From Acidobacteriota bacterium (lineage in GTDB: Bacteria; Acidobacteriota; Thermoanaerobaculia; Multivoradales; J023), in the NCBI GenBank assembly GCA_003697015.1, contig RFGL01000190.1, forward strand, positions 1-32,862: a stretch of 32,862 bases of DNA. The letters run 5' to 3'. The first letter of the stretch is position 1; each line of letters opens with the position of its first letter. Below, in pieces: positions 28,535-30,424 of the stretch. Position numbers and translations under genes: made by a program. Below the pieces are notes generated by a model. That model was not told the DNA's origin and made no database searches. It saw only the letters and a program-made list of their open reading frames with translations.

Positions 28535-28572
28535 CCGGCGACGGACCTTCCGCGGTACCGGTCCAGCCTCGG

Positions 28573-28601
28573 TTGACGTACGTATACCTTCGGTCTAAAG
28601 T
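28573..28601 (+). promoter_or_regulatory. sigma70-like promoter for the two-gene island
   Basis: TTGACG (28573-28578), 17-nt spacer, TAAAGT (28596-28601). The palindromes ACGTACGT (28576-28583) and GTATAC (28582-28587) fall at the -35 edge and in the spacer. Confidence 0.6.
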
Positions 28602-28640
28602 AGTAGGTGACGCCAAGCCCGAGCTGTGAGGAGGCACAGG

Positions 28641-28982
28641 ATGGCCACCAAATCAAGAATTGGAAGCGAACGGACCGCGGAAGCGGCCTCGAAGGTCGGC
28701 CGCAGTGGATCGTCGCCTACAAAACCGGAAACCACTGCCGCCAGCCCGCTCGCTCGGCGAGCCGCAGCCGAGGGCAAGACGTTGCAGAAAGCGGGGAAAG
28801 CAGCTTCGAAAGTCCGTCGCGGTGCCGGAGCGGGCCAGACGCCGAAAAGCGCCGCGGGCAGCGCGGTTGTAGAGCGACTGCCGCGCACCATTAAATCCGC
28901 CCCGAAGGCAGGGAAGGTCAGCAAGATGGACGTCAAACGTGCCGTCGAGGCAGTTTCGTCGAAGCGAGCTGCTACGTTCTAA
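28641..28982 (+). CDS. small highly basic Ala/Lys/Ser-rich protein of unknown function (113 aa)
   Basis: ATG at 28641 with AGGAGG (28629-28634) 6 nt upstream. By count 25 Lys+Arg versus 7 Asp+Glu. Two ~27-aa internal repeats (EAASKVGRSGSSPTKPETTAASPLARR / KAASKVRRGAGAGQTPKSAAGSAVVER). The supplied track extends to a GTG at 28626. Confidence 0.72.
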   Translation: MATKSRIGSERTAEAASKVGRSGSSPTKPETTAASPLARRAAAEGKTLQKAGKAASKVRRGAGAGQTPKSAAGSAVVERLPRTIKSAPKAGKVSKMDVKRAVEAVSSKRAATF

Positions 28983-28994
28983 GAACGCAGCATT

Positions 28995-29612
28995 ATGAAG
29001 CGCTCAGCCTATGAGGAAAGCGTATTCATCAACTGCCCGTTCGACGCCGCTTACCTGAACCTCCTGAACGCGATACTCTTCGCCGTATTCGACTGCGGTT
29101 ACAAGCCCCGTTGCGCCCAAGAAGCCGACGACGGATCCCAGGTCCGAATTCAAAAAATCTACCAGCTGATCGCCGGCTCCAAGCTCGGCATCCACGACAT
29201 CTCGAGGACCGGCCTGGATCCGGCGACCAACCTTCCAAGATTCAACATGCCCTTCGAACTCGGCGTCTTCCTGGGCGCCAAGAGATTCGGCGACAAGCAT
29301 CAGCGCAGCAAGAATTGCTTGATTCTTGACAAAGAACCATACCGATATCAGCAGTACATTTCCGACATCTCGGGCCAAGACATTCGTGCCCACGGCGACG
29401 ACCCCGAGACCGTGATCAGCATCATTCGAGATTGGCTGAAGAATGCATCGCCGGACACGGTAATACCTGGCGGCAAAGAGATCTTCAGACGCTACAAACT
29501 CTTCATGAGCGAGCTGCCTGAGCTTTGCGCCGAAATCCCGATTGATCCCAGCGAGCTCACCTACAACGATTATACGTCGTTCATCTCCGAGTGGCTGAGG
29601 GTCAACGCATGA
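28995..29612 (+). CDS. conserved-looking 205-aa protein, putative TIR/nucleoside-deoxyribosyltransferase-like Rossmannoid domain
   Basis: Starts 12 nt after the preceding stop. SVFINCPFDAAYLNLLNAILFAVFDCGYKPRCAQE, IYQLIAGSKLGIHDISR, LPRFNMPFELGVFLGAKRFG, NCLILDKEPYRYQQYISDISGQDIRAHGDDP. Alternating strand/helix pattern with Glu in the ELG motif. The fold assignment is inference. Confidence 0.8.
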   Translation: MKRSAYEESVFINCPFDAAYLNLLNAILFAVFDCGYKPRCAQEADDGSQVRIQKIYQLIAGSKLGIHDISRTGLDPATNLPRFNMPFELGVFLGAKRFGDKHQRSKNCLILDKEPYRYQQYISDISGQDIRAHGDDPETVISIIRDWLKNASPDTVIPGGKEIFRRYKLFMSELPELCAEIPIDPSELTYNDYTSFISEWLRVNA

Positions 29613-29641
29613 GCCGGGTGCCCCCATACGAGCGGCAGCGG

Positions 29642-30424
29642 TTACTCCAGCTGGTCCTTGCGCCGGCCGCAGAGGGCGGTGACGACGCCGTGCAGGGTGC
29701 GGACCTCGCGTTCGCTCAGGTTGGCGCGGTGGAAGATGGCGCGCAGGTTGCGCACCATCGACGGGCGTAGCTCGCGGGTCTTGAAGAAGCCCGTTTGCTC
29801 GAGGGCGCCTTCGAGGTGGTCGAAGAAGCCGAGCAGCTGCGCGCGGGTGGCCGGCGGCGCGCCGGCGGCGGAAGGCCGAGGCGGCGACGGCAGCGATCCG
29901 GCGCGGCGCCACTCCCAGGCCAGGAGCAGCACCGCCTGGGCGAGATTCAAGGAGCTGAAACCGGGGTTCAGGGGAATGGTGAGGATGGCGTCGGCCAGGC
30001 TCAGCTCATCGTTGGTCAGGCCGATGCGCTCGCGGCCGAAGAGCAAGCCGGTGCGCTCCCCCCGGGCACTGGCGCGGCGGATCGCCGCCGCCGCTTCCTG
30101 CGGCGTGAGCACCGGCTTGGCGACGTCCCGCGGCCGGGCGGTGGTGGCGTAGACGTGATGCAGGTCGGCGACGGCGCTCCGCAGGTCGTCGTAGAGTCGC
30201 GCCGCGTCGAGCACCGCGTCGGCACCCGACGCAGCGGCCCGCGCCTGGGGATTGGGCCAGCCGTCGCGCGGCGCGACCAGCCGCAGGTCCCCGAGGCCGC
30301 AGTTGAGCATCGCCCGCGCCGCCGCGCCGACGTTCTCCCCCAGCTGCGCCCCGACCAGGACGACGGCGGGGGCCCCGTCCTCGACGTCGCTCATGCCGCG
30401 CAAGCGGCCGTCCGTACCGGCCAT
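29642..30424 (-). CDS. trmJ: TrmJ/TrmH-like SPOUT tRNA 2'-O-methyltransferase
   Basis: VVLVGAQLGENVGAAARAMLNCGLGDLRLVAPR, TGLLFGRERIGLTNDELSLADAILTIPLNPGFSSLNLAQAVLLLAWEW: SpoU-type knot motifs. An alternative start at 30394 (MSDVEDGAP) is possible. Confidence 0.88.
   Translation of the reverse strand: MAGTDGRLRGMSDVEDGAPAVVLVGAQLGENVGAAARAMLNCGLGDLRLVAPRDGWPNPQARAAASGADAVLDAARLYDDLRSAVADLHHVYATTARPRDVAKPVLTPQEAAAAIRRASARGERTGLLFGRERIGLTNDELSLADAILTIPLNPGFSSLNLAQAVLLLAWEWRRAGSLPSPPRPSAAGAPPATRAQLLGFFDHLEGALEQTGFFKTRELRPSMVRNLRAIFHRANLSEREVRTLHGVVTALCGRRKDQLE

Follow-up and report, generated by a model that had tools for sequence, protein, structure and literature searches.

A candidate conflict module pairing a divergent TIR-like protein with a small basic partner that carries a conserved tag

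The stretch of DNA analysed here (the window) comprises 32,862 nt of an Acidobacteriota genome (assembly GCA_003697015.1, contig RFGL01000190.1) and contains a two-gene island coding for a basic protein of 113 aa and a TIR-like protein of 205 aa. TIR enzymes are among the core components of antiviral immunity in organisms as different as bacteria, plants and animals. In our opinion, there is an even chance that the pair is a horizontally acquired conflict module, in which a TIR-family enzyme is restrained by a dedicated partner bearing a conserved tag and is released during infection. Stated more broadly, the pair gives the impression of a widespread and so far unnamed module that serves defence or acts as a toxin-antitoxin system, most likely one of toxin-antitoxin-like or abortive-infection type, with a TIR effector under the control of its cognate tag protein. 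Its chemistry would be familiar, that of TIR NADases, and nothing found in the open-access papers searched matches the tag-partner architecture.

The acquired low-GC island (28535..29641, no strand assigned) lies between convergent genes for a MobA-like nucleotidyltransferase (PF12804, 1e-40) and a SpoU/TrmJ-type RNA methylase (PF00588, 9e-24). The sharp GC drop claimed in the preliminary description is reproduced exactly (0.45 at 29281-29340 versus 0.80 at 29881-29940). Positions 28600-29630 have a GC content of 0.584, compared with a window mean of 0.722 (sd 0.029, 1-kb windows); of all 1-kb windows in the 32.9 kb, the five poorest in GC begin between 28561 and 28641; and GC3 is 0.65 and 0.73 in the two island genes versus 0.89–0.94 in the flanking genes. 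The claim of an insertion between two housekeeping genes is supported as well. In the one same-genus genome searched (G001), the homologs of the flanking genes are convergent and lie ~112 bp apart, versus 1107 bp in the window. Given this empty site, the pair was most likely acquired by insertion at the junction of the flanks; the alternative is a deletion in G001. Direct or inverted repeats of at least 7 nt, as would be expected of a transposon footprint, were not found at the island borders.

Both island ORFs (28641-28982 and 28995-29612) are intact, co-directional and 12 nt apart, and the first ATG, that of the 113-aa gene, is preceded by the Shine-Dalgarno sequence GAGGAGG, as described earlier; no clear Shine-Dalgarno sequence of the 205-aa gene was seen. 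The dedicated promoter, also claimed, fares less well: one promoter-like site was found, TTGACG-17 nt-TAAAGT (28573..28601, plus strand; 9/12 matches), with 0.4 expected by chance, which makes such a promoter plausible but weak. Its −35 element is overlapped by an imperfect palindrome, GGTTGACGTACGTATACC (28571..28588, no strand assigned; arms 83% complementary), a possible autoregulatory operator. These features bear on the explanation that the pair is a decaying foreign relic without current function in this genome. The foreign GC, the single copy of the TIR-like gene in the window genome and the many broken copies elsewhere would agree with it, but neither reading frame is broken, no invariant residue has been lost and there is a promoter-like site, and we give this explanation hardly any weight.

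Neither island protein matches a Pfam, NCBIfam or PADLOC model, including the defence models of PADLOC-DB. For the 205-aa protein (FINCPFD...RFNMPFELG...SDISGQDI; 28995..29612, plus strand; pI 5.5), searches of the PDB by sequence and by profile gave nothing relevant, and the phage genome collection gave no match. PHROGs and NCBIfam compared with 66 homologs of the protein yield scattered weak matches only, and PADLOC applied to the homologs yields only trace matches to TIR effectors. The structural assignment is carried by an AlphaFold2 model built on the 66-homolog alignment (mean pLDDT 92, pTM 0.90), which was used in place of a single-sequence prediction (pLDDT 37). The model consists of a single TIR-like domain, with the flavodoxin-like sheet and the Glu-bearing helix of the TIR fold, plus short helices. 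Its top PDB matches in Foldseek, with E-values of only ~1e-3, are the SPARTA TIR-APAZ protein and the SfSTING TIR, with AbTir reaching a TM-target score of 0.73; the top match in the Foldseek viral library is a CAP12/Pycsar TIR.

The second line of evidence is the putative active site. The segment RFNMPFELG (29238..29264, plus strand) holds R82, N84 and E88 at the spacing of R78, N80 and E84 of the SfSTING TIR, and the R82-x-N84-x3-E88 signature is invariant in 66/66 homologs and also kept in much more distant relatives. In the SfSTING TIR, R78 and N80 are positioned for substrate holding and E84 is catalytic (PMC9402430). The modelled fold, together with an invariant signature of this spacing, places the 205-aa protein in the TIR family by predicted fold and active-site conservation, and the protein probably cleaves NAD+.

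The relation to PF10137 (CAP12-PCTIR_TIR) is more distant than membership. This family is touched weakly by 31/66 homologs (best 8e-4, below the gathering cut-off), and the window protein itself has no match to it. A profile-profile comparison with bona fide PF10137 domains of the same order aligns over the full length and in register (P 2.9e-4), and in this alignment RFNMPFELGVFLG falls on RQNVxFELGxFxG. Since no score exceeds the PF10137 cut-off, the protein is filed here as a divergent TIR relative rather than as a member. The preliminary description had spoken of a “TIR/NDT-like Rossmannoid”; structure and profile bear out the TIR side, and the NDTs are a more distant match. NDTs (7o62, 8pqt) do occur among the Foldseek matches, so that the protein might instead be a glycosidase of nucleosides or nucleotides resembling the NDTs, or else a nucleotide sensor without catalytic activity, and not a TIR that consumes NAD. 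They are outranked by TIRs, however, and the R-x-N-x3-E signature and the register are those of PF10137, which leaves this reading highly improbable.

The 113-aa partner (28641..28982, plus strand; pI 11.6, 25 K+R versus 7 D+E) was introduced as a “tiny basic repeat protein”. Basic it is; “repeat” is loose, the N-terminal two thirds being rather a low-complexity region rich in Ala, Lys and Ser, followed by a conserved C-terminal tag. The tag, RTIKSAPKAGKVSKMDVKRAVEAVSSKRAA (residues 82-111; 28884..28973, plus strand), is common to partners across phyla. It has the pattern R-T-I-K-x-x-P-K-x-G-x-V-x4-V-K-x-A-V-x-x-V in the window partner, and its wider consensus, usually C-terminal, is R-[TK]-[IV]-x-x-[PA]-x-[KR]-x-G-x-[VIL]-x4-[IV]-x-x-A-[VI]-x-x-[VIL]. 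The 35 upstream partner examples, window included, have a median length of 77 aa and a median pI of 11.6, and the gaps that separate them from the TIR-like gene are mostly −14 to +17 nt.

Because the initial tag set was chosen by eye and by pattern, the tag model was subjected to two control tests. A model made without the window finds the window partner with an E-value of 6.8e-8 among 7778 ORFs, the next window ORF having an E-value of 21. With two-fold hold-out, tag matches are found in 26/65 and 18/66 upstream ORFs versus 25/6365 and 26/6431 ORFs elsewhere, and nearly all of the matches elsewhere are poribacterial genes immediately downstream of a TIR-like gene, a position on which the model had no information. 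After iteration, a tag gene is present at 66/89 homolog loci, upstream or downstream; by a stricter tally, a tag gene or a tag + DUF2188 gene is present at 57/78 genome loci. The partner lies upstream in most phyla and downstream in Poribacteria.

About one quarter of the relatives have no recognisable tag, but a different small basic ORF lies upstream in many of them. More distant TIR-like relatives pair with plain DUF2188 (PF09954), and the most distant ones with yet another small basic upstream ORF. DUF2188 was considered as a universal partner and rejected, as close relatives carry the tag, sometimes with DUF2188 and tag on one chain (L022, L048, L083, L091, and L004 by eye). Relatives of the VFLNIPYD type (L103-L109, L117) often have upstream small basic ORFs that contain an HTH-like stretch, e.g., LGVSKTRQNLIASIV, and no tag. 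It should be noted that small partners are easily missed: at L145:6001-6624, the public annotation begins the TIR-like gene ~165 bp downstream of where homology places its start, and it omits the small upstream ORF that overlaps this gene.

Three outcomes had been named beforehand in the preliminary description as speaking against it: missing linkage of the two genes, a housekeeping enzyme family for the 205-aa protein, and a native composition of the region. The linkage recurs across many phyla, no housekeeping family was matched in Pfam, NCBIfam or PDB, and the foreign GC with the empty site in a congener marks the region as not native.

The linkage was also followed across whole genomes of Poribacteria, where the survey covered the 85 genomes returned for the phylum. 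A tag gene lies no more than 600 bp downstream of 44/45 full-length TIR-like genes, and 60/81 tag genes adjoin a TIR-like gene or its remnant. Both genes are present in 42 genomes, the tag gene only in five and the TIR-like gene only in four. Of 71 places with a TIR-like gene, 40 are full length without a stop, although some of the short ones may be contig ends. There is thus a pronounced asymmetry of loss: some 37 tag genes stand beside broken or missing TIR-like genes, versus a single full-length TIR-like gene without a tag gene. Such an asymmetry would be expected of a TIR-like protein that imposes a cost when its partner is missing.

Poribacterial proteins of very different kinds carry the tag as their N-terminal part. 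In six genomes it precedes a DncV-like CD-NTase (PF21654, 3e-10; PF18144, 4e-7), and in the neighbour set that holds this fusion, PADLOC CBASS cyclase models match at values down to 1e-127. Two genomes have the tag joined to a ThsB-type TIR (PF08937 ThsB_TIR, 5.7e-23), and further fusions are to GIY-YIG-like proteins and to DUF2188. The fusions to CD-NTase and ThsB_TIR tie the tag to immune enzymes. Poribacterial sub-clades of the TIR-like tree follow the type of partner (GIY-YIG-like in L069/L073/L081/L082, DUF2188 in L038/L042/L047/L048), which suggests that effector and partner evolve together.

Several individual loci deserve mention. The units at L060:6655-7929, L229 and L233-L236 are bare two-gene arrangements of a TIR-like gene and a tag-CD-NTase gene, with no other CBASS gene recognised alongside. 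As read from the sequence, the tag-ThsB TIR gene of L240:3166-3774 has an HsdS-like gene and the decayed remains of a TIR-like gene beside it, and that of L227:2312-3121 is flanked on both sides by type I restriction-like genes. At L056:6636-8429, L041:6632-8437, L059:6632-7888 and L237:1499-3310, the tag is N-terminal to a domain of up to ~560 aa; the domain of L056, which was scanned, has no Pfam match.

These observations bear on two other explanations of the partner. According to the first, the partner is an activator or sensor: the TIR-like protein would be harmless by itself, and the tag protein would bind phage nucleic acid or make a nucleotide signal and so nucleate TIR oligomers, in the way that other TIRs are assembled by STING, SAVED or Argonaute. 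The fusion of the tag to infection-sensing enzymes (CD-NTases and a ThsB-type TIR) speaks for an activator, as do the CD-NTase version being a bare pair and the apparent resemblance of DUF2188, GIY-YIG-like domains and basic tails to nucleic-acid modules. The opposite is indicated by the toxin-antitoxin pattern of loss, in which full-length TIR-like genes nearly never occur without a tag gene and tag genes often outlive TIR-like genes, and by the upstream, often overlapping position of the partner (gaps mostly −14 to +17), which is typical of antitoxin-first operons. We consider the activator unlikely, if deserving of serious attention.

According to the second explanation, the pair is a selfish addiction module of toxin and antitoxin with no immune role, kept by post-segregational killing. 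The patchy distribution, with up to six places per genome, the broken copies, and the plasmid and transposon-associated copies could all be so understood. This reading by itself hardly explains partners fused to CD-NTase and to ThsB TIR; two loci in or beside type I restriction genes also speak against it, and it is in our opinion improbable.

Restraint of a TIR enzyme by its partner, the reading we prefer, can be put as a sequence of steps. The 205-aa protein would be a stand-alone TIR enzyme, a divergent relative of the CAP12/Pycsar/TIR-STING group (PF10137), that would cleave NAD+ through E88 upon oligomerisation. The constant tag of 30–35 aa, in which a short helix follows an Arg/Lys-Pro stretch, would dock on the TIR protein, and the variable remainder of the partner would serve as an input module: in the window a Lys/Ala-rich tail, likely nucleic-acid binding, and elsewhere DUF2188, a GIY-YIG-like domain, a CD-NTase or a ThsB-type TIR. 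As long as the cell is at rest, the TIR would be kept inactive by the partner. Engagement or loss of the input module, e.g., upon phage infection, would release or assemble the TIR, which would then deplete NAD+ and stop growth. Gene order and the asymmetry of loss point to restraint, the fusions to enzymes point to triggering, and the two may both apply.

A defence role is one that we infer from neighbours and fusions, not from enrichment. When 77 neighbour ORFs were compared by PADLOC with 77 control ORFs from the same genome set, defence matches occurred in both, the control set including a CRISPR locus by chance. This comparison did not separate the two sets. That it shows no defence-island enrichment counts against the preferred explanation, as do the sub-cut-off PF10137 scores, the ~1e-3 Foldseek E-values, the tagless quarter of relatives, the unfixed order of the partner, and the tag genes that occur without a TIR-like gene in some genomes, for which a model of pure activation or inhibition has no need.

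A wider proposal, which we hold tentatively and at clearly less than even probability, is that one stand-alone TIR effector family operates under a universal docking tag mounted on interchangeable input modules, i.e., basic nucleic-acid tails, DUF2188, GIY-YIG-like domains, CD-NTases, ThsB-type TIRs and the ~560-aa domain. If so, several known immune signalling enzymes would be wired to the same NAD-depleting output.

Comparison with known systems shows partial likeness to several. With the CAP12/Pycsar TIRs (PF10137), including that of SfSTING (PMC9402430), the window protein shares the predicted fold, the register, the R-x-N-x3-E signature and a following S-D-x-x-G motif. The window protein differs in having no ligand-binding domain (SAVED, STING or other) on its chain; it has its own C-terminal helical extension and a separate tag partner. 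The six Poribacteria genomes in which the tag protein is a CD-NTase adjoining a TIR-like gene or remnant recall CBASS. Unlike CBASS, the module has two genes only, no cyclic-nucleotide receptor domain is seen on the modelled effector, and the window version lacks a CD-NTase, which is seen in those six genomes only.

The two fusions to a ThsB-type TIR (PF08937) recall Thoeris, but no ThsA is seen with them, the window island has no ThsA (SIR2/SLOG or equivalent) either, and the neighbour of the ThsB fusion is a TIR-like gene or remnant. SPARTA supplies the best Foldseek matches and a two-gene layout with a TIR effector; the window module differs in lacking an APAZ domain and an Argonaute. With type II toxin-antitoxin systems, the likeness lies in a small basic upstream gene, a short gap or overlap, and a partner that is nearly always present (44/45 in Poribacteria) and outlives the effector; the difference is that in Poribacteria the order is reversed and the partner carries enzymes. 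Swarozyc/DUF4062, a divergent TIR-like family recently reported as an NADase defence protein (PMC13174449), is a different family, with a trace DUF4062 match in 1/66 homologs only; it indicates that comparable divergent TIR families continue to come to light.

In open-access papers on TIR toxin-antitoxin, Cap12/Pycsar and nucleotide-centred conflict systems, no description of this TIR-like + tag pairing was found, and the open-access papers found for DUF2188 were unrelated. The occurrence of the tag both beside TIR-like genes and fused to CD-NTases and ThsB-type TIRs would make it a sequence handle for new sensors, and would turn the switching-on of stand-alone TIRs into a directly testable question.

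The family is widespread, yet rises above no curated Pfam or NCBIfam cut-off: a scan of one genome per species gave at least 567 relatives of the 205-aa protein, of which 80 were kept. Its distribution is patchy. By whole-genome search, the TIR-like gene is present in 7/59 genomes of relatives, the window's own counted, and in 16/297 genomes of the phylum. The best match of the window protein among the matches listed is planctomycete, at 62–63% identity, and the sole same-family copy among the matches found is ~50% identical to the window protein. In the tree of TIR-like proteins, Poribacteria form one clade and elsewhere phyla are mixed; the window protein belongs to a supported group of ten rows that represent eight phyla (96/87, the bootstrap being not fully settled). 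Plasmid copies exist. On the Sphingomonas aliaeris plasmid NZ_CP061036.1 (L144:670-6612), a TIR-like gene and a small upstream gene directly follow genes for a Mu-type transposase, TniB, TniQ, HU and a serine protease, and the pair is probably transposon cargo.
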